A stretch of DNA of 36,969 nt. Source: Gemmatimonadota bacterium. GTDB lineage: Bacteria; Gemmatimonadota; Gemmatimonadetes; Gemmatimonadales; Gemmatimonadaceae. The DNA is taken from the NCBI GenBank assembly GCA_016871855.1, contig VHBQ01000028.1:1-36969 (forward strand). Direction: 5' to 3'. Position numbers and translations under genes: made by a program. This document shows, piece by piece, positions 1,760-33,927 of this stretch. Each line of letters starts with the position of its first letter. The stretch's first letter is position 1. Under the pieces are notes generated by a model that searched no databases, was not told where the DNA came from, and was given only the letters and a program-made list of their open reading frames with translations.

Positions 1760-4700
1760 AACTCGCTGAGTTTTCCGTCCGACGGTGGCAGTTCACCATC
1801 CTGATGTTCCTGATGCTCGTCGCCATTGGCGCGGTGAGCTGGAAGCGCATCCCCCGCGGCGAAGATCCGGTCTTCCCGATCCCGACCTTCATGATCGTGG
1901 TCGTCTATCCGGGGGCGAGCCCGGCCGACATGGAGCAGCTTGTCGTCGACAAGATCGAGGACAAGCTCGGCGCGCTCGAAAACGTCTGGAAGCTCTATGG
2001 GGCCGCCGAGGACGGGCTGGCCACCATTCGCGTTGAGTTCGAGCCGCAGGTGGATGCCGACCGCAAGGAAGATGAGGTCCTGCGCGAGATGAACGCGCTG
2101 CGCGCCGAACTCCCCGCAGGGATCGCGCGCCTGCAGATCATCCGCGCGTCGGCAACGAACGTGAACATCCTCCAGGCCGCGCTGGTGAGCGCGGACGCGC
2201 CGTACGCGCAGCTCGATTCCATCGCCAAGCAGTTTGAGCAGCGGCTCGAGCGGCTGCCGAGCCTGAAGAGAGCCGAGCGGTGGGCAGCGCCGGGACGCGA
2301 AGTGCAGGTCTCGCTCAACCTCGACAAGCTCGCGCGCGCCGGCATTCCGCCGCTGCAGGTGATGCAGGCGATCGGCAGCGACAACATCACGATTCCCGGC
2401 GGGAGCGTGGACGTGGGGCCGCGGCGGTTCAACCTCGTCCCGCAGGGGCGCTATCGCACGCTTGACGAGGTGCGGCAGACCGTCGTCGGCGGGTCGAAGG
2501 CGGGGATCGTGCGCTTGCAGGACGTGGCCGACGTGCAGTGGGGCGACGGCGACCCGAACCACATCGGCCGGTGGAACGGCCAGCGCGCGGTATTCGTAAC
2601 GGCGGCGATGAAGGAAGACGCGAACATCGCCGTGGCCAAGGACGAGATGTGGCCGCTGCTCGACGAACTCGAGCGCGCCCTCCCCAACGGCGTGACGCTG
2701 GTGCGCGGTTTCGACCAGGCGGCGAACGTGGATCACCGCCTGTCGCGACTGGCCGTGGACTTCGCCATCGCCCTAGGCCTCGTCCTGCTCACGCTCCTTC
2801 CGCTGGGCCCGCGCGCGTCGGCGATCGTGATGACGAGCATTCCGCTCTCGCTCTCCATCGCCGTCGCCCTGCTCGACGTGACGGGCTACAGCATCAACCA
2901 GCTTTCCATCGTCGGCTTCGTCATCGCCCTCGGCCTGCTGGTGGACGACTCCATCGTCGTGGTCGAGAACATCTCGCGCTTCCTGCGCGCCGGGCACTCG
3001 CGGCGCGAGGCGGCGGTGCAGGCGACGCGGCAGATCGCCGTGGCGGTGATGGGAGCGACGGCGACGCTGATCTTCGCCTTCTTGCCGCTCATTTTCCTGC
3101 CGGGCCTCCCCGGCCGGTACATGCGGTCGTTGCCGCTCGCCGTGGTGTACGCGGTGCTCGCCTCGCTCTTCGTGAGCTTTACCATCGTGCCGTGGCTGGC
3201 GAGTCGCATCATGCCGCGGACGAGCGAGAAGCACGGCAACCGCTGGCTGCAGCTGCTCGAGGGCGGCATCCAGAAGACGTACGCTCCCCTGCTCCACCGC
3301 GCGCTCGGCAACCCGTACCGCACGCTGATCGCATCGGGCGTGCTGATCGTCAGCTCGCTCGCGCTGGTGCCGGTGGTCGGGTTCTCGCTCTTCCCCAAGG
3401 CGGGGACGCCGCAGTTCCTGGTGAACATCGAGACGGGCGAGGGGACGGCGATCACGGCGACCGATTCCGTGACGCGGATCGCCGAGCGTTTGATCCTGGA
3501 GCACCCCAACACGCGGGGCGTCTTCACGAACGTCGGCAAGGACAACCCGTTCATCTACTACAACGTCGTGCCGCGCGCCGAGGCCGGGAACATCGCCCAG
3601 CTCCTTGTGCTGCTGCACGAGTACCGCCCGACGGAAACACCGCAGGTGATCGACAGCCTGCGCACCGCGCTCGCCGCGGTGCCTGGGGCGCGCATCGAGG
3701 TGCGCGAGTTCGAGAACGGCCCGCCGATTGACGCGCCGATCGCGATGCGCATTGAGGGACCCGACCTGGACACGCTGCGCGCACTCTCCGCGCGCGTGAA
3801 GCGCGTGGTCGAGCAGACGCCGGGGACGCAGTACGCGCGCGATCCGCTGGCCGTCTCGCGCACCGACCTGGCCCTGCGCGTGGACCGCCTGAAGGCGGGG
3901 ATGCTCGGCGTCGCCACGGTCGAGCTCGACCGCACCGTGCGACTCGGCGTGGCCGGCCTCGAGGCGGGCAAGTTCCGCGCGGCCGACGGCGAGGAGTATC
4001 CCATTGTGGTGCGCGTCCCGCGTGACGGGCGCCCGACAGCCGAGATTCTCGACCGCATCCACGTCCCGTCCACCACGGGGGCGATGATCCCGCTCACCCA
4101 GCTTGCGCAGGTGGGCTTCAAGGGGTCGCCCAACGCCATCATGCACTACAACCAGGTGCGGGCGGCGACGGTGACGAGTTACGTGCGAACCGGATACAAC
4201 ACGGACCGCGTGACGAAGGCGGTGCTCGAGCAGCTGCAGACCATGAAGCTGCCGGATGGCTACCGCATCGTCGCCGCTGGGGAGATCGAGAGCCGCGAGG
4301 AGAGCTTTGGGGGGATCGGCAACGCGATCATCGTCGCCATCTTCGGCATCCTCGCCATTCTCGTGCTCGAGTTCCGCACGTTCAAGAGCACGCTGGTGGT
4401 GGCGAGCGTGATCCCGCTGGGCATTGTCGGCGGCATCGTGGCGCTGTGGCTGAGCGGCAACACGCTGAGCTTCGCGGCGATGATCGGCTTCGTGGCGCTC
4501 ATCGGCATCGAAATCAAGACGAGCATCCTGCTGGTGGACTTCACCGACGAGCTGCGCCGGCAGGGCTACTCGCTCGACGACGCGATCCAGCGCGCGGGCG
4601 AGGTGCGCTTCGTTCCGATCGTGCTGACATCGCTGACCGCGATCGGCGGCATGCTCCCGCTCGCCCTGCAGGGTTCGTCGCTGTACTCGCCGCTGGCGTG

Positions 4701-5956: not shown

Positions 5957-6080
5957 GGGGAACGGGGAGGAGGTAGAGGCGAAGGGACGGGGGTGGAGGT
6001 GCGGAACGGGGGGGAGGCTACGTTCCTCTTCAACTGCACTCGAGCCTCGTCCCCTCGCCTCTACCTCCTCCCCGTTCCCC
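5957..6080. terminator. Class B inverted repeat downstream of alaS
   Basis: A near-perfect 34-bp arm, containing GGAACGGGGAGGAGG and TAGAGGCGAAGGGACG, spans 5957-5990; its complement at 6047-6080 ends two bases from the alaS stop. An inner GAGGCT/AGCCTC pairing lies in the centre. On the minus strand it is directly 3' of alaS and before the next gene, fitting a terminator or attenuator without a T-tract. Confidence 0.75.
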
Positions 6081-6082
6081 CA

Positions 6083-8851
<2,769 letters not shown>

Positions 8852-8910: not shown

Positions 8911-8985
8911 GGGCCGGGGGACCTTTTCGCGAAATTCTCGGGCCCTTTGGGCCCTCGAGTATTCGCGAAGAAGGTCCCCCGGCCC
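8911..8985 (+). repeat. Class A hairpin 1 (conserved asymmetric loop)
   Basis: Outer stem 8911-8925 (GGGCCGGGGGACCTT) pairs perfectly with 8971-8985. TTCGCGAA arms follow, then the internal loop ATTCTC (8934-8939) opposite TCGAGTA (8955-8961), then the GGGCCC-TTT-GGGCCC terminal stem. It lies in the 369-bp gap between the divergent genes alaS and ctaA and faces hairpin 2 in opposite orientation. No gene is visible in this gap. Confidence 0.9.
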
Positions 8986-9101
8986 TCACCGCGCTAAGGG
9001 GGACGAGGAGGGCCTTGCACCGCCCCTCACCCTTTCCGCGCCGCACGCCGCGGCATCCGTGGTTGGAGGCAGGCGGAGGCGGTCGCAGTTCCCCTCCCCA
9101 A

Positions 9102-9193
9102 GAGGTGGAGGCTGGGGGGTCGCTCCGCGCGAATACTCGAGGGCCCAAAGGGCCCGAGAATTTCGCGCGGAGCGACCCCCCAGCCTCCACCTC
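9102..9193 (-). repeat. Class A hairpin 2, inverted partner of hairpin 1
   Basis: GAGGTGGAG at 9102-9110 and CTCCACCTC at 9185-9193 close a near-perfect stem that continues GCTGGGGGGTCGCTCCGCGCGAA. Read on the minus strand, the 40-bp core is identical to that of hairpin 1, with the same ATTCTC/TCGAGTA loop. The outer stem differs from hairpin 1 but is perfectly self-complementary, so differences in one arm are matched in the other. The element ends 27 bp before the ctaA ATG and would cover its -35 region. Confidence 0.9.
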
Positions 9194-9208
9194 GTCCCCC
9201 TCGCCGTG

Positions 9209-9214
9209 TACGTT
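9209..9214 (+). promoter_or_regulatory. Probable leaderless promoter -10 of ctaA
   Basis: TACGTT (TANNNT) lies exactly six bases before the ctaA ATG at 9221, and no Shine-Dalgarno sequence is present. This spacing is that of leaderless transcripts in other high-GC bacteria. The same arrangement precedes the four-helix-bundle gene, yraN and the radical SAM gene. Confidence 0.5.
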
Positions 9215-9220
9215 GAACTC

Positions 9221-10282
9221 ATGCCAGATCCGCACACGAAGCCGCTGATCCGATGGCTTGATGCCACGGTGGCCGCGGTCGCACTCGCCGTCGTCATCGG
9301 CGGAATCACCCGCCTCACCGAAAGCGGCCTCTCCATCACCGAGTGGAAGCCCGTGAGCGGCGTGCTGCCGCCGCTCACCGCGGCGGCTTGGGCCGAGGCG
9401 TACGCCAAGTTCCTCGCGATCCCGCAGGCGCAGACGATCCACGCGGGGATCACGCTCGCCGAGTTCAAGGGGATCTTCTGGTGGGAGTGGATCCACCGCA
9501 TCGCCGCGCGCGTCGTGGGGCTGGTGATCGCGGTGCCGTTCTTCTGGTTCTGGGCGAAGGGGCGACTCCCGAAGCCCCTCGTCGGCCGGCTGGCCATTCT
9601 CCCCGTGCTCACGCTGGCCCAGGGCGCGCTCGGCTGGTACATGGTCAGCTCAGGGCTCAGCGAACGCGTGAACGTCAGCCAGTACCGGCTGGCGGCGCAT
9701 CTCGGGCTGGCGCTGGTCATCATGGTGATCGCGCTCTGGACCTCGGCATCGCTGCGCGCGGCCGGACGCGCGGCGCAGGGGGGCGGTGACGGGAACGCCA
9801 GACATGCGGGCGCGTTCAACACGCTTCTCTGGACGCGTATCAGCGACGTCTTCGCGATCTGGACGCTCCTGGTCATCCTGAGCGGCGCGTTCGTTGCCGG
9901 CCTGCGCGCGGGGAAGATCTACAACACCTTCCCGCTGATGGGCGGGCAGATCGTGCCGCCCGGCTACAACATGCTCGATGGGTTCTTCAAGGACGCGTTC
10001 GAGAATCCCGCGGCGGCGCAGTTCCATCACCGCGTGCTGGCGATCCTGACGGTCGTCGTCGCCATTTCGCTCTGGGCCTGGGTGAGCGGGTCGACCACGG
10101 CGCCGGCGCGCGTGGTGCGGGCCTGGCAGAACGTGGCGATTCTGGCCGCCGTCCAGGTGACGCTAGGGATCGCGACGCTGCTCCTCGGCGTGCCGATCGC
10201 GCTCGCGGCGATTCATCAGCTCACTGCCGTAGCATTGTTGGGTGCGACCGTGCTCGCCGCGCATTCGGTTCGGGGTTTGTAG
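9221..10282 (+). CDS. ctaA: Heme A synthase (COX15/CtaA)
   Basis: A 353-residue integral membrane enzyme that oxidises the C8 methyl group of heme O to give heme A for aa3-type cytochrome oxidase. The N-terminus GGITRLTESGLSITEWKPVSG is the signature of the Cox15-like branch. The four conserved heme-ligand histidines are in the expected contexts: EWIHRIAAR, RLAAHLGLA, FHHRVLA and AAIHQLT. About eight membrane segments in two four-helix halves are visible, with the conserved loop LRAGKIYNTFPLMGG between them. The start is the ATG after hairpin 2; a longer open frame upstream only translates that hairpin. The TAG stop overlaps class A hairpin 3. Confidence 0.95.
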   Translation: MPDPHTKPLIRWLDATVAAVALAVVIGGITRLTESGLSITEWKPVSGVLPPLTAAAWAEAYAKFLAIPQAQTIHAGITLAEFKGIFWWEWIHRIAARVVGLVIAVPFFWFWAKGRLPKPLVGRLAILPVLTLAQGALGWYMVSSGLSERVNVSQYRLAAHLGLALVIMVIALWTSASLRAAGRAAQGGGDGNARHAGAFNTLLWTRISDVFAIWTLLVILSGAFVAGLRAGKIYNTFPLMGGQIVPPGYNMLDGFFKDAFENPAAAQFHHRVLAILTVVVAISLWAWVSGSTTAPARVVRAWQNVAILAAVQVTLGIATLLLGVPIALAAIHQLTAVALLGATVLAAHSVRGL

Positions 10283-10366
10283 CGGAGGCCGAGGGGGTCG
10301 TCTGCGCGAAATTCTCGCGGCGTTGCCGCTCGAGTATTCGCGCAGACGACCCCCTCGGCCTCCGCT
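10281..10366 (+). repeat. Class A hairpin 3 at the ctaA stop codon
   Basis: AGCGGAGGCCGAGGGGGTCG at 10281-10300 starts a 30-bp outer stem matched at 10337-10366. The loop ATTCTC/TCGAGTA is conserved, but the terminal stem is now GCGGC-GTT-GCCGC. The first bases are part of the ctaA stop codon, so it is the first thing transcribed after the gene; a terminator or 3'-end stabiliser role is plausible. The outer stem resembles that of hairpin 2, with compensating differences. Confidence 0.9.
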
Positions 10367-10470
10367 TGACACTCTTCCGGCGTGCGCGGCGGGCAGGGTC
10401 GGTGGTGGGGAGAGGGGCGAACGACACCGCGGGACGCCGCCCAAGCGTCGCCGTTCGCCCCGTCCCTCAA

Positions 10471-10559
10471 GCGGCCAGCGGCGCGTGGTGTTCCGCGCGA
10501 ATACTCGAGCGCCAACGGCGCGAGAATTTCGCGCGGAGCACCACGCGCCGCTGGGCCGC
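10471..10559 (-). repeat. Class A hairpin 4 after the recX stop
   Basis: GCGGCC (10471-10476) and AGCGGCGCGTGGTG (10477-10490) pair with 10554-10559 and 10539-10552. On the minus strand the core reads GAA-ATTCTC-GCGCC-GTT-GGCGC-TCGAGTA-TTC. It begins four bases after the recX stop and points towards hairpin 3 across a 104-bp spacer. It shares the GTT loop with hairpin 3 but has a different stem. Confidence 0.9.
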
Positions 10560-10563
10560 CCCC

Positions 10564-11280
10564 CTAGAGCAGTTTGGCCAAGACCGCGGCGATGTCAGTG
10601 GCGTCGTAGCCGCGGCGGGCGAGGTAGCCGTAGAGTCGGCGCTTCACCGTGTCCCGGTCCTGCCCGGCGAGCACCGCGAGCTTCTTCTTCGCCGCCTGCT
10701 CTAACAGCGCCCGCTCATCCACCGACTCCTCCTCGAGCACCTCGGCGATGGCCGCGTCGGCCATGCGGCGGTCCACACCGCGGCGAGAGAGCTCCTGGGC
10801 AAGGCGTCGACGAGACATGCCCTTTCCAAGCGCCCGGGAACGGGCAAACGCACGGGCAAACTGGCTGTCGTCGATCGCGCCGAGTTCGGTGAGGCGCTGC
10901 ACCGCGTCGGTGACGTCAGCGCGATCGAAGCCGCGCTGGAGCAGCCATCGCTCCAGTTCGTGCGCGCTGCGCGCGCGGCGGCCGAGCGCGGCGGCGGCCC
11001 GGTCAAACGCCTCGAGCCTGCGGGCGGCGAGGAGGAGCCGATCGCCGGCCGACTCGTCAACGACCTGCCCCACGGCCAGCCGTGCGTCGTGCAAGTACGC
11101 GGCATTGACGATGGCGACACTCTTCCCGTCCACGTGCACGGCGTACCGCCCCGGCTTGCGCGGATTCTCGCGCAGCGCCGTGATGGTGCCGGAGACACTG
11201 ACGGGGAGGTGCGGCGCGTCGGGTTCGACCGCGTCCACCGCACCACCCGGCGAGGATTTCGACTTGGACCAGCTGAACAT
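10564..11280 (-). CDS. recX: RecX, regulator of RecA
   Basis: A 238-residue protein, long for RecX (about 150-270), that binds in the RecA filament groove and limits filament growth. After a charged N-terminal stretch, three RecX three-helix repeats are visible, e.g. SAHELERWLLQRGFD...TELGAIDDSQFARAFAR and GMSRRRLAQELSRRGVD. It ends RRLYGYLARRGYDATDIAAVL. The ATG at 11280 has an AGGAG nine bases upstream; a TTG one codon earlier is in frame but less likely. It is downstream of recA on the same strand, separated by three hairpins, a layout known elsewhere to limit recX expression by partial termination. Confidence 0.9.
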   Translation of the reverse strand: MFSWSKSKSSPGGAVDAVEPDAPHLPVSVSGTITALRENPRKPGRYAVHVDGKSVAIVNAAYLHDARLAVGQVVDESAGDRLLLAARRLEAFDRAAAALGRRARSAHELERWLLQRGFDRADVTDAVQRLTELGAIDDSQFARAFARSRALGKGMSRRRLAQELSRRGVDRRMADAAIAEVLEEESVDERALLEQAAKKKLAVLAGQDRDTVKRRLYGYLARRGYDATDIAAVLAKLL

Positions 11281-11294
11281 CAAAGGGGACTCCT

Positions 11295-11339: not shown

Positions 11340-11458
11340 GGAACGGGGACGGGGTTGAGGCGAAGGGACGGGGGTTGAGACACGGAACGAGGAGGATGCC
11401 TCGTCCCTCCTTGCTGCACTCCATTCTCGTCCCTTCGCCCCTACCTCCTCCCCGTTCC
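11340..11458. repeat. Class B inverted repeat in the recA-recX gap
   Basis: The 31-bp left arm at 11340-11370 (GGAACGGGGACGGGG then TTGAGGCGAAGGGACG) is matched by the right arm at 11428-11458 with few mismatches. The centre holds CGAGG-ATG-CCTCG. Together with two further hairpins at 11479-11572, it separates recA from recX. Confidence 0.75.
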
Positions 11459-11577: not shown

Positions 11578-12621
<1,044 letters not shown>

Positions 12622-12902: not shown

Positions 12903-13268
12903 TTACATCGAAAACGCCGATTCGACGTGCCGAACCCACGCGGTCCGGTCTTTCAGCAGCACGCCGATGACATCGAAGCGGAAGGTCTGCGCTTCCGCTC
13001 GATCACAGCGCGCCATCCACTCGCGCGCGCTGCGCGCCAGGGAGCGCTGCTTCTGAGCGTGCACCGCCTCGACGGGGTCGCCGAATTCTGTCCCGGCGCG
13101 CGTCTTCACCTCGACGAACGCCACGACGCCCTCGCGAGCGGCGATGAGGTCGATGTCGCGGTGGCCGCTGCGCCAGCGGCGGGCGAGGACGGTGTAGCCG
13201 TGCTGTTCGAGCCAGCGGGCGGCGATGCGCTCGCCGAGTTCGCCGAATTGGTTGGTGGCTTTTGTCAT
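12903..13268 (-). CDS. yraN: YraN family endonuclease-like protein (UPF0102)
   Basis: A 121-residue protein with the restriction-endonuclease-like fold of UPF0102: GERIAARWLEQHGYTVLARRWR, then the catalytic-type residues in GHRDIDLIA and VVAFVEVKTR (D...E-x-K). Its cellular role is not established; links to recombination or DNA repair have been proposed for the family. The start at MTKATNQFGELGE matches the family; an upstream in-frame ATG only adds a poor 13-residue tail. TACACT ends seven bases before this ATG, suggesting a leaderless start. Confidence 0.9.
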   Translation of the reverse strand: MTKATNQFGELGERIAARWLEQHGYTVLARRWRSGHRDIDLIAAREGVVAFVEVKTRAGTEFGDPVEAVHAQKQRSLARSAREWMARCDRAEAQTFRFDVIGVLLKDRTAWVRHVESAFSM

Positions 13269-13275
13269 GGCGACG

Positions 13276-13281
13276 AGTGTA
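13276..13281 (-). promoter_or_regulatory. Possible leaderless -10 of yraN
   Basis: TACACT on the minus strand, seven bases before the yraN ATG at 13268. It fits the TANNNT pattern seen before ctaA and two other genes. No good -35 is visible. Confidence 0.4.
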
Positions 13282-13349
13282 GCGGCGCGCGGCGCGGCGC
13301 GTGTCACCGATTCGACGCGGTTCGGATCGTTCTGTTGCGCAGGGGGGCG

Positions 13350-13459
13350 CGGCAGGCCCGCATCTCGCCCCGCACAGGCTCTCGGACCCTACGAGCGCGC
13401 TGCGCGCGCCGTTTATGGGTCCTGCGGCCGCCTGTGCGGGTCGAGATGCGGGCCTGCCG
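13350..13459 (+). repeat. Class A hairpin 6 with second loop motif
   Basis: A 30-position outer stem (13350-13379 with 13430-13459) has one mismatch. Inside, GGACCC (13384-13389) pairs with GGGTCC (13417-13422). The next internal loop is TACGAG (13390-13395) opposite CCGTTTAT (13409-13416), capped by CGCGC-TGC-GCGCG. The lower loop keeps only TCTC of the ATTCTC motif. It lies in the 388-bp gene-free gap between yraN and ftsK and faces hairpin 5. Confidence 0.85.
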
Positions 13460-13507
13460 TTCGGGCGAGGGGAAAGGCGGGCGCGACGATGGGCTCGTGC
13501 ACGCTCC

Positions 13508-13634
13508 GCGCGCGGCTCCGGGGGTGTGCGCAGGCGAATACTGGAGGGTCATAAACGGAGCGCGCGCCCCTTGGGGCGCGCGCTCTCGAAGACCCGAGAA
13601 TTTCGCCGAAGCACACCGCCGGAGCTGCGCGCGC
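13508..13634 (-). repeat. Class A hairpin 5, composite with both loop motifs
   Basis: Read on the minus strand, the outer arm (GCGCGC...CTCCGGCGGTGTGC) pairs imperfectly with GCACACCCCCGGAGCCGCGC. Then come GGCGAA, loop one (ATTCTC opposite TCCAGTA), stem GGGTC/GACCC, loop two (TTCGAG opposite CCGTTTAT), and a 12-bp GC stem. Both conserved loops are therefore stacked in one hairpin. It begins 22 bases after the ftsK stop, in ftsK orientation. Confidence 0.85.
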
Positions 13635-13656
13635 TTCAGCGGGGCGCGCCGCCCAT

Positions 13657-16047
13657 CTACTCCTCGTCCCGCCCGCCGCAGATCCGGTCGAGATCCTCGA
13701 GTCCGACGAGCACGTCGCGCGGCTTGGAGCCGTCGGGCGGACCAAGCACGCCGGCGAGATGGAGCTGGTCGATGACCCGCGCCGCGCGCCCATAGCCGAT
13801 CTTCAGGCGACGCTGCAGCAGCGACGTCGAGCCCCCCTGATTCTGGATGCACACCTCGGCGGCCTCGCGGAACAGCTTGTCGCGATCGCTGTCGTCGGTG
13901 TCGCCATCCTGCCCCGCGCCGGCCTCCAGCGCCTCCTGCTGACGTACGCGCTCCAGGATGTCCTGCTCGTCGGCGGCGTCCACGTGCATCAGCCCCTGCG
14001 CCTCGAGCGCGGCCTTCCGTGCCTCGCGGCGGTCGGCGTACCAGTGCATCAGGCGCTCGGTGTCCTCGTTGCTGAGGAACGCGCCCTGCAACCGCGCGGG
14101 TTCGCTCTTCCCCGGCGGAATGAAGAGCATATCGCCGTTGCCGAGCAGGGACTCGGCGCCCATCCCGTCGATGATCGTGCGGCTGTCCACCTGGCTCGCC
14201 ACGCGGAAGGCGATCCGGCTCGGGAAGTTCGCCTTGATGAGGCCGGTGATGACGTTCACGCTGGGGCGCTGCGTCGCGAGAATGAGATGGATGCCGATGG
14301 CGCGCGCCTTCTGCGCGAGCATCGCCAGCGGCGTCTCGACCTCGGCGGCGCAGGTCATCATCAGGTCGGCGAGCTCGTCGATGACGACCACGATGTACGG
14401 GAGCACATTGCCCTTGTACTCGCGGTCCTCGAACGCGACGTTCGGGTCCTTGGGCTTCAGCATCCGCTGCCCGTCGCGCACCTTCTGGTTGAAATCCTGA
14501 ATGTTGCGCGCGCCGTTGGCGGCGAGGAGCTGGTAGCGCTCCTGCATCTCGAGCACCGCCCACTTGAGCATTGAGGCGGCGTCGCGGTTGTCGGTGACGA
14601 CCTTGTGGCGCAGGTGCGGCAGCACGTTGTAGACGCTGAGCTCGACCATCTTGGGGTCGACCATCAGGAAGCGGAGCGTCTTGGGCGTGTGCCGGTAGAT
14701 GAGGCTCGTGATGATGGTGTTCACGCAGACCGACTTGCCGCTGCCGGTGGCGCCGGCGATGAGCAGGTGCGGCATCTTGGCGAGGTCGGCCACCACCGGA
14801 CGCCCCTCGAGATCCTTGCCGATGGCCATCGGCAGGGCGAAGGGCTTGCTGGTGTAGTCGCGGCTCTCAAGGAGCTCGCGGAAGATGACCATCTCCGAGA
14901 TGGGATTGGGCACTTCGATGCCCACCGCGCCCTTGCCCGGGATCGGCGCCACGACGCGAATGGACGGCGCGCGCATCGCGAGGGCGAGATCATTGGCGAG
15001 ATTCGCGAACTGCCGCACCTTCACGCCCGGCGCGGGCTCGATTTCGAACTGCGTGACCGTCGGACCGGTGGTGCGGCCGACGAGCTCGCCGTCCACGCGG
15101 AACGTGCGCAGGGCGTCCATCAGCTTCTGTCCGGCGGCATCGAGCTGCGCGCGGCCGGCGTCGGCGTTGCGCGCCGGCGGAAGGCTGAGCAGTTCGGGCG
15201 ACGGGAGCTCCTCGGCGAGCGGGTCGACGAGTTCACTGGCGTCGATCTCGTCGGCCACGGCTTCGTCGCGGGACTTCTTTTTCTTCTTCTCGGACTTGGC
15301 CGGCGACGCGTCGAGCAGCTCAAAGGCGGGATCCTCCGCCTTGGCCGGCTCGGGCGTGGCGAGCGCAGCGGTGAATCCTTCCATCAACGACAGGTCGAGC
15401 TGCGGCATCTCGTGCGCCGGCGGCTCCATCTGCTCGGCCTTCGTCATCGTCGCGTCCGCGGCCTTGGGCTTGGACGCCGAGCCGAGGAGGGCGCGAATCG
15501 GATTCCAGTTGAGGGCGACGGCGCAGAGCACGCTGAGCGCGATCGCGATGATCACCCATGCACCGCCGAGTCCGATGGCCTTCACCAGGTAGTACGCCGC
15601 GAAGGCGCCCCAGACGCCAGCGAGCGGATCGAGGTCGGCTGAGCCGTACAGGCCGCGGGCGAGCGAGGCGATCACCGGCACGACGACGGCGAGTCCGACA
15701 GTAAACGCGAGCCAGCGGCGATCATCTGTCTCGCCGATGCGTCCAAGCAGGCGCAGCGCGACAACGGCGGGAATCATCGGCACGATCACGGCGGAGAGTG
15801 CGCCGACGAGCGTCAGGACGGACCAGCGCAGGCAGGCGCCGACGGGGCCGAAGACCGACCCGGCATCCACGCAGGAGGCCGACGAATACGCGGGCGGCGC
15901 GATCAGCGCGCCGGCGACGAAAACGGCGCCGAGGAGGAGGGCAATGCCGCCGATCTCGCGCTTGAGGTGCTCGCGGCGCACCGCGCGGGCGAGATCATCG
16001 GCCGTGGGCTCGAGGTTGTCGTTCTTCGGGCGGCGCCGCTTGGGCAT
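13657..16047 (-). CDS. ftsK: FtsK/SpoIIIE DNA translocase
   Basis: A 796-residue septal DNA pump that moves the chromosome dimer-resolution region at division. After a basic N-terminus (MPKRRRPKND) there are about four membrane segments within residues 25-200. A short charged linker carrying a KKKKK run follows, then the RecA-like motor with Walker A GATGSGKS near residue 434 and Walker B VVVIDELADLMM near 557. The winged-helix gamma domain is at the C-terminus (QNQGGSTSLLQRRLKIGYGRAARVIDQL). An upstream ATG at 16269 is in frame, but those codons overlap comB and look like its shadow, so I prefer 16047; a GTG near 16087 is a third option. Class A hairpin 5 follows the stop. Confidence 0.93.
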   Translation of the reverse strand: MPKRRRPKNDNLEPTADDLARAVRREHLKREIGGIALLLGAVFVAGALIAPPAYSSASCVDAGSVFGPVGACLRWSVLTLVGALSAVIVPMIPAVVALRLLGRIGETDDRRWLAFTVGLAVVVPVIASLARGLYGSADLDPLAGVWGAFAAYYLVKAIGLGGAWVIIAIALSVLCAVALNWNPIRALLGSASKPKAADATMTKAEQMEPPAHEMPQLDLSLMEGFTAALATPEPAKAEDPAFELLDASPAKSEKKKKKSRDEAVADEIDASELVDPLAEELPSPELLSLPPARNADAGRAQLDAAGQKLMDALRTFRVDGELVGRTTGPTVTQFEIEPAPGVKVRQFANLANDLALAMRAPSIRVVAPIPGKGAVGIEVPNPISEMVIFRELLESRDYTSKPFALPMAIGKDLEGRPVVADLAKMPHLLIAGATGSGKSVCVNTIITSLIYRHTPKTLRFLMVDPKMVELSVYNVLPHLRHKVVTDNRDAASMLKWAVLEMQERYQLLAANGARNIQDFNQKVRDGQRMLKPKDPNVAFEDREYKGNVLPYIVVVIDELADLMMTCAAEVETPLAMLAQKARAIGIHLILATQRPSVNVITGLIKANFPSRIAFRVASQVDSRTIIDGMGAESLLGNGDMLFIPPGKSEPARLQGAFLSNEDTERLMHWYADRREARKAALEAQGLMHVDAADEQDILERVRQQEALEAGAGQDGDTDDSDRDKLFREAAEVCIQNQGGSTSLLQRRLKIGYGRAARVIDQLHLAGVLGPPDGSKPRDVLVGLEDLDRICGGRDEE

Positions 16048-16117
16048 CGTCTGCACGGGCTCGCCGATGTCCCGCTCGCTCACGGAGCCGGTGCGACGGG
16101 CGCGGGGCGGCGCGTAG

Positions 16118-16891
16118 TCATCCGGCGACGAAGCGGCCGTCGCGCCAGCGCGGGACGACCGCGACCGCGTCGATCGCGGCGCAGGCGTCGAGGTCGGCTC
16201 CGAATCCGCGGTCTCGGAGGAATCGTCCATGCTGAGCGTCGCGGAAGAGCCGCGAGAGATCTTCGCCATAGGCCTCGTCTAGGCACGCGCAGGCGCGTGC
16301 GCCGTCGTTCATCGGGAGCCGGCCGCCGCTGGCGGCCTGGAGGCGTCGCACGAGGGCCCCCGCACAGGCGGCATCCTCGAGCGCAAAGCCCCCATCGCGA
16401 CCGGCACAGGCGATGGCAACGGAGGCAGGCTCCTCCAGCCGTGGCCGGAGGAGCGCTACAACCGCCGAGAGATTGACGTATGAGGCTAGGATCAAGTCAC
16501 GACCATAGAGGGACGGGGAGGAGGTAGAGGCGAAGGGACGGGGTGGGAGGTGGGGAACGGGGAACGGGGATGGCGCGGTCAGGATCGCGTGGATGGCTCG
16601 CGTGCCGTTCGTCGTGGTCCAGGCGAGTTCCCTGCCCTGCACCGCTTCCGCCGTGAACTCAAGCGGCGAGTTGCCGAGATCGAAGCCGTCGGGCTTCACG
16701 GCGTGACGTTCACCGGCGAGGAGGGCGCGCGGGGCGTGGGCGCGTGCCTCCTCAATCGTGGCGCAGGGGATCAGCGAGCGCGCGCCATTTGCCAGCGCGT
16801 AGGCGGCGCTGGTCGTGAAGCGAAGCACGTCGATGACAATGGCGACTTCGCAGCGGACGGGGCGAGGGGAGAGGAGTACTTCAGTGCGCAC
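16118..16891 (-). CDS. comB: 2-phosphosulfolactate phosphatase (ComB family) with repeat-derived insertion
   Basis: A 257-residue ComB-type protein; characterised members hydrolyse 2-phosphosulfolactate to sulfolactate. Family signatures are clear: VIDVLRFTTSAAYAL, LLAGERHAVKPDGFDLGNSP, TTTNGTRAI, ASYVNLSAV and CAGRDGGFALEDAACAG. The start is GTG at 16891. Between TRAIHAILTA and RDLILASYVN, where relatives run straight through, 24 extra residues (PSPFPVPHLPPRPFASTSSP and SLYG) are encoded by 16502-16573, a copy of the intergenic class B arm. The frame is kept. Sulfolactate metabolism is otherwise not evident here, so the in vivo substrate is uncertain. A short gap then leads to ftsK on the same strand. 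Confidence 0.88.
   Translation of the reverse strand: MRTEVLLSPRPVRCEVAIVIDVLRFTTSAAYALANGARSLIPCATIEEARAHAPRALLAGERHAVKPDGFDLGNSPLEFTAEAVQGRELAWTTTNGTRAIHAILTAPSPFPVPHLPPRPFASTSSPSLYGRDLILASYVNLSAVVALLRPRLEEPASVAIACAGRDGGFALEDAACAGALVRRLQAASGGRLPMNDGARACACLDEAYGEDLSRLFRDAQHGRFLRDRGFGADLDACAAIDAVAVVPRWRDGRFVAG
16502..16573. repeat. Class B half-element inside comB
   Basis: The plus strand reads GGGACGGGGAGGAGG then TAGAGGCGAAGGGACG, then GGGGTGGGAGG and two GGAACGGGG-like units: the class B arm found in the intergenic regions. It is 72 bp (24 codons), in frame with comB on the minus strand and free of stops in that frame. The complementary arm is absent. Confidence 0.88.
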
Positions 16892-17512: not shown

Positions 17513-17715
17513 AGGCCTATGCGCGCAGGTGGAACGAGGAGGGGGTAGAGGCGAAGGGACGGGGCGTGGGATGGGGAACGAGGGAGGGGAACGACGAAGG
17601 GGGTCGGCGACGCACGCCGGCCCCCTCCTCGTTCCGCCCCTCTGTCCTCGTCCCTTCGCCTCTACCTCTTCCTCGTTCCACGAAGTGGAGTCGCCTCTAC
17701 CCCCTCCTCGTTCCA
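17494..17715. terminator. Class B element with doubled arms between convergent genes
   Basis: Two nested inverted repeats share one axis. The outer arms are 17494-17516 and 17693-17715; the inner arms are 17530-17561 and 17649-17680 (TGGAACGAGGAGGGGG then TAGAGGCGAAGGGACG). The centre is a GC hairpin, GGGGGTCGGCG-ACGCA-CGCCGGCCCCC (17599-17625). It ends two bases before the accC stop and supplies the stop codon of the facing gene, so it probably ends transcription in both directions. No T-tract. Confidence 0.8.
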
Positions 17716-17717
17716 CC

Positions 17718-26840: not shown

Positions 26841-27107
26841 CAGAAGACGACAGAAGACGACAGAAGACGACAGAAGACGACAGAAGACGACAGAAGACGA
26901 CAGAAGACGACAGAAGACGACAGAAGACGACAGAAGACGACAGAAGACGACAGAAGACGACAGAAGACGACAGAGAACGACAGAATAGGACAGAGGGGCG
27001 CGGCGAAGATCTCGCGGCGCCCCTCTGTCGTTCTCTGTCGTTCTCTGTCGTTCTCTGTCGTTCTCTGTCGTTCTCTGTCGTTCTCTGTCGTTCTCTGTCG
27101 TTCTCTG
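26841..27107. repeat. Class D: facing 10-bp tandem arrays around a terminator hairpin
   Basis: Thirteen perfect tandem copies of CAGAAGACGA (26841-26970) are followed by CAGAGAACGA and two degenerate copies. A hairpin follows: ACAGAGGGGCGC (26990-27001) pairs with GCGCCCCTCTGT (27017-27028). After it come seven perfect copies of TTCTCTGTCG (27031-27100) plus a partial one. The right array is the complement of CAGAGAACGA, not of the left unit. It fills the gap between the convergent foldase gene and tatA. Confidence 0.95.
26990..27028. terminator. Bidirectional terminator hairpin between foldase and tatA
   Basis: A perfect 12-bp GC-rich stem at the centre of the class D arrays, extended on both sides by partly complementary repeat units. 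There is no T-tract. Convergent gene orientation supports termination in both directions. Confidence 0.65.
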
Positions 27108-33788: not shown

Positions 33789-33927
33789 GGGGAACGGGGA
33801 GGGGGTAGAGGCAAAGCGAGGAGGGCTGGGGAGCGGAACGAGAAGGGGGCATCCAGCGCGTGGACGCCCCCTCGCTCGTTTCCCCACCTCGCGTCTCCTC
33901 GCCCAGCCTCTACCCGCTCCCCGTTCC
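33789..33927. terminator. Class B element downstream of hutU
   Basis: The left arm GGGGAACGGGGAGGGGG plus TAGAGGC (33789-33812) is matched at 33906-33927. The centre is a GC hairpin, GGGGGC-ATCCA-GCGCG-TGGAC-GCCCCC (33845-33871), with one unpaired base on each side. It lies nine bases after the hutU stop on the minus strand and separates hutHU from the radical SAM gene. Confidence 0.75.

Follow-up and report, generated by a model that had tools for sequence, protein, structure and literature searches.

Contig VHBQ01000028.1 of a draft Gemmatimonadota genome (GCA_016871855.1), whose 36,969 nucleotides are referred to here as the window, carries several very long intergenic hairpins with a conserved, mismatched internal loop, which we designate class A. 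On balance, these hairpins probably form the ends of a mobile DNA element that is non-autonomous and about 200-330 bp long, composed of two long inverted hairpins and a free spacer, of which a folded single strand is recognised. The direct support consists of the hairpins and the covariation of their stems, their pairing in (+,-) orientation, dispersed near-copies of the whole unit, orthologous junctions that lack the pair, and occurrence in a single genus among the genomes searched. The family is real and genus-wide, and its interest lies more in the pair than in the single hairpin. The host genome (G000) is a 2.99-Mb draft of 159 contigs, the window being its contig C28; it was studied as one of 11 genomes of its genus, all drafts, 78-99% complete.

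A preliminary description of the window had taken the single hairpin as the unit and listed five of them, all of which are present at the positions given. Pair 1 (8911-9193), between the divergent genes alaS and ctaA, has a short-form hairpin with a one-base stem bulge at its left end, on the alaS side (8911-8985, plus strand), a 116-bp spacer, and a short-form hairpin at its right end, on the ctaA side (9102-9193, minus strand), with 32-nt arms of full complementarity. Pair 2 (10281-10559, about 280 bp) occupies the ctaA-recX junction, with short forms at its left end (10281-10366, plus strand) and its right end (10471-10559, minus strand), the latter adjoining the 3' end of recX. Unit 3 (13343-13640, approximate ends) comprises a hairpin of a sister class, class B (13350-13459, plus strand), to be added to the five listed, followed by a spacer and a class A hairpin in a long, composite form (13507-13634, minus strand), with which class B has a terminal domain in common. 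All four simple window copies (at 8930, 9130, 10307 and 10498) have the core CGAAATTCTC...GAGTATTCG without deviation, and the composite hairpin has TCCAGTA in place of TCGAGTA. For instance, the core of the 10281 copy (10307-10340, plus strand) reads CGAA, ATTCTC (10311-10316), inner stem and tip, TCGAGTA (10330-10336), and TTCG. An inverted-repeat scan blind to the loop recovered three of the four simple hairpins, with arms of 27-32 nt at 96-100%; that at 8911, with its one-base bulge, appeared with a 39-nt arm at 74%.

Hairpins of this kind are numerous in the host genome and its relatives. The exact core has 22 matches on seven of the 159 host contigs (a control pattern has none) and 24 distinct copies once longer tips are allowed; in all, the host carries 34 class A hairpins, five of them in the window, and four of class B. 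Two covariance models were used, R1, built from 24 class A copies, and R2, of the long form. R1 has matches in 10 of the 11 genomes of the genus and in none of 49 from other genera (60 genomes), and R2 in 10 of 11 and in none of 30 outside (41 genomes), under stricter filters with which weak matches can be lost; the covariance-model match in G003 is single and weak. The family is thus not confined to the window, an outcome that would have undone the original proposal. Scanned by pattern, 84,980 species genomes yielded 31 matches, spread over 21 stretches. Of these matches, 24 form the fold, with 15-20 of 20 outer positions paired, and come from records named Gemmatimonadetes or Gemmatimonas, with one named only 'bacterium'; the other seven, all from other phyla, were dropped as chance matches (3-12 of 20 outer positions paired). 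The exact core pattern has no match in viral contigs, and unit 3 has none in plasmid and phage records. A literature search for palindromic intergenic repeats in Gemmatimonadota and for miniature inverted repeats in Gemmatimonas, with subscription journals mostly outside its coverage, found none. From the stretches fetched, 111 hairpins were gathered (100 class A, five class B, and six weak, doubtful or cut). The class A set derives from covariance-model matches, in which the loop is scored and not demanded; 91 of the 100 were parsed, and the other nine do not enter the counts of loops, tips, strands and feet. Assemblies often break at hairpins, which then lie at contig ends (for example G008:C42:3-96, G010:C2:12-106 and G004:C19:6315-6408), so that copy counts are lower bounds and probably underestimates.

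The arrangement of the hairpins points to the inverted pair as the unit. Class A neighbours less than 500 bp apart are in (+,-) order in 19 of 19 cases, and in 22 of 22 when class B is included, so that the single-hairpin view gives way to the pair. Neighbours 500-1500 bp apart are mixed: 13 (-,+), four (+,+) and two (-,-). The terminal inverted repeats by which a miniature inverted-repeat transposable element is recognised are here the hairpins themselves. Near-copies of unit 3 occur on host contig C76, two full and one cut by the contig end; the two full copies share 96.3% identity over 296 bp, and their identity to the window copy is 81-83%. The host thus has three complete B-A units, whose similarity ends close to the outer limits of the hairpins. 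G009 carries one unit twice, on C82 and, inverted, on C28, and G010 has four near-identical hairpins in about 4 kb. In the latter genome, near-copies at 10022, 11923 and 12871 of stretch L089 (contig C2), compared by eye with that at 9010, seem to have the hairpin core reversed relative to the spacer, as if palindromes could flip.

Orthologous junctions differ in whether they hold the pair. The ctaA-recX junction, occupied in the host, is free of hairpins in G002, G004, G005 and G008 (39, -4, -19 and 55 bp), holds a different repeat in G001 (182 bp), and has, by eye, remnant-like sequence in G006. Between alaS and ctaA, G000 and G001 have a pair, G004 and G008 have one hairpin each, and none was found in G002, G005 and G006; the comparison of the two junctions covers genomes other than G003, where ctaA is inverted, and, for alaS-ctaA, other than G007, G009 and G010. 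Such gains and losses are the pattern of a mobile unit, and mobility is well supported. Since pairs occur as dispersed near-copies and are missing from some orthologous junctions, a non-autonomous mobile element with a REPIN-like plan is the reading to which they lead. In stretch L089 (contig C2 of G010), at 2699-4114, a PemK toxin module is flanked on each side by a hairpin pair; between the corresponding neighbours the host has a single pair. Where a gene's 3' end falls no more than 30 nt from a class A hairpin, the stop codon is TAG in 34 cases, TAA in seven and TGA in five, with TAG at 154 of 431 elsewhere in the same stretches; this excess may reflect a preferred target. The possibility that TAG forms the end of the element was abandoned, as the feet of 40 copies adjoining gene 5' ends show three occurrences.

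From the outside inward, a class A hairpin consists of a variable outer stem, the clamp CGAA/TTCG, the loop, a variable inner stem and the tip. The outer stem has a median length of 29 bp including the clamp (by simple extension). The long form, common among relatives, has a second internal loop ahead of the tip. In the window copy at 13507-13634 this loop is TTCGAG facing CCGTTTAT; the short form appears to have lost it. The outer stem had been described as ending in CGCGAA, which reduces to the clamp: CGAA is found in 32 of 34 host copies, CGCA in the other two, and CTCA in 16 of 57 parsed copies of relatives. ATTCTC stands opposite TCGAGTA or TCCAGTA in 71 of the 91 parsed copies, and TC opposite TC is kept in 83. 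The loop had also been said to be neither perfected nor lost, which holds within the window; family-wide, three of 91 copies have a fully paired 2x2 loop, ATTGTC/GACAGTA (two) or ATTCGC/GCGAGTA (one). Entropy in the outer stem beyond the clamp is 1.1-1.9 bits at all but one position, the sequence of the palindrome not being conserved, and in the loop it is below 0.5 bits at 11 of 13 positions; because the parser demands part of the loop, these latter values are lowered and conservation over the 91 copies is somewhat overstated. With that bias of parsing and selection granted, the loop varies much less than the stems, and the opposite was not seen.

The likely register of the loop places ATTC opposite GAGT, with a T-G wobble, followed by a bulged A and by TC opposite TC. 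Its four pairs are standard in 90, 91, 85 and 52 of 91 copies; those of the CTC/GAG register proposed in the preliminary description form in 81, 85 and 37. Loop position 4 and its partner are C-G in 37 copies, G-C in 10, T-A in five and C-C in 39. This covariation favours ATTC/GAGT, with the 39 C-C copies unpaired there. The exact fold first proposed is weakly supported or unsupported, although CTC/GAG may yet be the register.

The stems keep their pairing while their sequence changes widely. In 24 exact-core copies, 96.0% of 744 stem cells pair, versus 74.3% when shuffled and 37-52% when the partner column is slid, and there are 153 two-sided changes, seven one-sided and 30 unpaired cells; four of five covariation measures are matched by none of 500 shuffles and the fifth by nine. 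This alignment was selected by the exact core, so that its loop is invariant by construction and the stems alone are an independent test. Among 30 long forms, 91.1% of 1105 cells pair, with 195 two-sided changes, and no shuffle of 500 matches any of the five measures; at loop position 4, 23 of the 30 lack the pair. The statement that changes in one arm are matched in the other is therefore borne out. Hairpins beside the same gene in two genomes tell a similar story: in 20 comparisons covering 400 stem positions, 159 were unchanged, 138 had both arms changed and Watson-Crick paired, and 103 were other, a class inflated by bulges because the comparison is ungapped, with some hairpins reused and one listed comparison dropping out on account of an unparsed copy. 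For scale, DNA identity between G000 and G001 is 89% for recA, 86% for alaS, 84% for obg and 73% for ctaA. The copies are spread over the genus and have rewritten stems beside the same genes, and so are not merely recent identical duplicates.

As changes are mostly two-sided and wobble intermediates few, we infer that some copying from arm to arm takes place; one-sided G-U states should be commoner under ordinary compensation. Carried to its limit, this yields a purely mutational account, in which template switching keeps the hairpins perfect and nothing recognises the loop; the predominance of two-sided changes and the existence of loop-perfected copies agree with it. Such copying should, however, erase the loop, which has kept TC opposite TC in all but eight parsed copies, and C-G, G-C and T-A replace one another at position 4, the many C-C copies notwithstanding. 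We therefore regard the mutational account as rather unlikely.

Recognition of a folded single strand, offered at the outset as the likely reason for the loop, fares better, as the stems covary, the loop varies far less, and the family extends across the genus. Several features bear on which strand folds. Triloop tips are present in 78 of the 91 parsed copies, and have the form GNA on the complementary strand in 50 of the 78 and on the forward strand in none; counted over distinct cores, the figures are 41 of 66 and none of 66. GNA loops are described as extraordinarily stable DNA mini-hairpins in PMC4686876. Outer-stem mismatches in 81 copies are A-C 78 times and G-T 30 times, and after thinning to 28 dissimilar stems 24 and nine times (P 0.014); since A-C reads G-T on the opposite strand, this bias favours the complementary strand. 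Predicted energies agree weakly, the complementary strand being more stable in 63 of 90 copies with DNA parameters and in 58 of 90 with RNA parameters. TC opposite TC could also be read, on the complementary strand, as tandem GA in a CGAG context, a very stable motif; this is a reading only. The tip loops and the mismatch bias suggest that the complementary strand is the one that would fold.

Whether the folded strand is DNA or RNA can be judged from the genes alongside. A cis-acting structured RNA, whose loops are bound by a protein or nuclease in transcripts near gene ends, would account for the RNA-type covariation and the intergenic position, and RNA folding parameters draw the ATTC/GAGT register for the window copies at 8911 and 10281. 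Among 95 gene ends on the forward 5' side of a hairpin, 53 are 3' ends, at a median distance of 19 nt; the other 42, however, are 5' ends (P 0.30), and orientation is set by the pair and not by the gene strand. Since hairpin orientation has no link to the direction of transcription, DNA is inferred in preference to RNA. One-sided G-U changes are few (seven), no Rfam family reaches its gathering score in the window, and junctions without hairpins exist beside the same genes. A structured RNA is on this evidence unlikely, and the role at RNA 3' ends that had been envisaged is weak or unsupported. Recognition of single-stranded DNA is moderately supported.

A mobile element of this kind might work as follows. 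The unit would be single-stranded at some step, and the fold would form in the complement of the forward reading (5'-CGAATACT[C/G]GA...GAGAATTTCG-3'). A putative enzyme would read the loop imperfections and not the stem sequence, leaving the stems to drift freely while paired, and complementarity of the arms may be maintained in part by one arm serving as template for the other, through template switching at the CGAA/TTCG clamp.

Most host copies appear to lie close together. A 118-kb contig of G006 carries orthologues of host contigs C28, C72, C76, C90 and C62 in that order (C76 through two genes only). If the host shares this order, 29 of its 34 class A and all four class B hairpins would fall in one zone of about 50 kb, from ftsK to hrcA, which is probably fragmented in the assemblies, given how often hairpins lie at contig ends; the remaining class A copies are on C87 (four) and C26 (one). 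Relatives have copies both in the same zone and elsewhere, and GC skew around the zone gave no clear result. On host contig C76 (L028), class A and class B hairpins are interspersed in an array of genes of toxin-antitoxin-like type (PIN, addiction-module antidotes, HTH_37, Uma2). Profiles of defence systems matched two of ten toxin-antitoxin-like proteins, all weakly.

Several observations weigh against a mobile element read through its folded strand. Among Y1, Y2, RVT_1, integron integrase and TnpB, no cognate enzyme was found to track the hairpins in the 11 genus drafts: Y2_Tnp occurs in two of the genomes, the reverse transcriptase domain RVT_1 in one and the TnpB zinc ribbon in one, and these found no support as partners, nor did the two enzymes considered below. 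No autonomous copy with the same ends was seen in the gene maps, in which genes are only partly annotated, and no target site duplication was readable, the relatives being too divergent at the junction. Many hairpins are single and most spacers dissimilar, pairless junctions may be losses, and an element that jumps freely would not usually be so clustered in one zone. As for the fold, the three fully paired loops persist, 30 of the 744 cells in the exact-core stems are unpaired, so that one-sided damage occurs too, and shared ancestry among the copies makes the P values optimistic. DNA folding parameters choose the CTC/GAG register, drawing CTCG/CGAG whichever strand is folded for the two short copies printed, and the folding programs draw no tandem GA on the complementary strand in the short copies printed. 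The conserved T-G pair, a wobble on the forward strand, becomes A-C on the favoured complementary strand.

A bolder version of the proposal, which we put forward as tentative and doubtful, makes the family a new class of single-stranded DNA mobile element, whose code would be the mismatched loops on one strand, whose stems would be rewritten from arm to arm, whose enzyme would be none of Y1, Y2, integron integrase, reverse transcriptase and TnpB, and whose movement would be largely within the zone of about 50 kb. If the element is as described, it is a bacterial element defined by its fold and the defects of that fold rather than by sequence, and repeat finders that work by similarity would pass over elements of this kind. 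It would also make two questions testable, namely how long palindromes stay paired despite wide change, and which protein reads a mismatched hairpin where neither RAYT nor integron integrase tracks the hairpins.

The genes around the hairpins, named by Pfam, are alaS (6083-8851, minus strand), ctaA (9221-10282, plus strand), recX (10564-11283, minus), recA (11578-12621, minus), a UPF0102 gene (12903-13307, minus) and ftsK (13657-16269, minus). The window contains other repeats as well. A second, different dispersed inverted repeat (GGAACGGGGAGG.GGTAGAGGCGAAGGGACG-like, with its complement) is intergenic at 5957-6080, 11340-11458, 17528-17717 and 33791-33927, and occurs also in stretch L026 (9407-9526 and 13115-13231). 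At 26891-27107 an imperfect array of decamers (CAGAAGACGA / CAGAGAACGA) lies opposite its own complement.

Among known systems, the closest in plan is that of REPINs and bacterial interspersed mosaic elements (BIMEs) with their RAYT (TnpA-REP) transposases. As there, we find intergenic inverted doublets of imperfect hairpins with conserved mismatches, single hairpins as remnants, a less conserved middle and, here as a proposal, strand-specific recognition of a single strand. In E. coli, the interaction of REP and transposase is described, in PMC8266576 and PMC3116915, as one in which the stem imperfection must stay unrepaired. The family could be a true REPIN/BIME moved by a RAYT (HUH Y1) transposase that was missed in the drafts or lost, and the plan given in these two sources matches in its doublets, imperfect palindromes, intergenic sites, single remnants, compensatory changes in the middle and mismatches conserved for single-strand recognition. 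The preliminary description had likewise guessed at a RAYT-like or Y1 transposase. The search it called for found Y1_Tnp in only two of the 11 genus genomes, the host's own copy having an internal stop codon. It was not found in the other nine, including copy-rich G001 (99% complete), G004, G008, G009 and G010, which have 9-26 R2 matches each (both strands counted). Nor is there a conserved GTAG foot. In the 26 nt that lie beyond the first 20 stem positions, GTAG is seen in 2-9 of 91 copies and CGTC in 10-17, depending on side and strand; GTAG is close to the outer foot in nine of 91 and, when the complementary strand is read, close to the inner foot in nine of 91, and neither motif is among the 14 most enriched 4-mers of either foot. 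The stems vary here, versus REPs described as highly conserved (PMC3116915, PMC8266576), and the window hairpins measure 75-128 nt, versus 20-40 bp for REPs in PMC3733652. The present family differs further in having free stems and a kept loop, and in its one zone and one genus. With no conserved foot, no RAYT in nine of 11 genomes and no conserved stem, it was not filed as a REPIN, and a RAYT-driven origin seems distinctly improbable.

Integron attC sites resemble the class A hairpins in acting as a folded single strand; they have unpaired bases and a variable terminal structure. IntI is listed among proteins acting on folded single strands in PMC8266576. The hairpins might then be integron-like recombination sites with toxin-antitoxin cassettes, a notion encouraged by the toxin-antitoxin-like genes with hairpins between them on C76, by the PemK module between two pairs in G010, and by an integron integrase above cut-off in four of the 11 genus genomes, together with a broken piece on host contig C87. 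This last (L029, 128-340) is an N-terminal integrase fragment followed, by eye, by an apparent transposase gene start. The integrase does not track the hairpins, however: G004, G009 and G010 have many hairpins and no integrase above cut-off, and G007 has an integrase and no hairpin match. Six integrase loci contain no R2 match and no match to a strict attC pattern (RYYYAAC...GTTRRRY), which in seven hairpin stretches matches once, on both strands, inside a gene of L029. By the pattern tried the hairpins lack RYYYAAC/GTTRRRY ends, their pairs are inverted instead of forming a same-direction array, no integrase adjoins them, and core genes are flanked by them too. An attC identity is very improbable.

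Mobile intergenic hairpins are also known from mitochondria, as the double-hairpin elements and the sponge RHE; in Allomyces, double hairpins have compensated stems. In the sponge RHE, according to PMC2800124, stems are kept and loops vary, the opposite of the class A family. The bacterial stem-loop repeat families of PMC2267715 are mostly intergenic and found at the level of species, and include PU-BIME with a five-base internal loop. Those families, however, were clustered there by sequence similarity, whereas class A stems share hardly any sequence.

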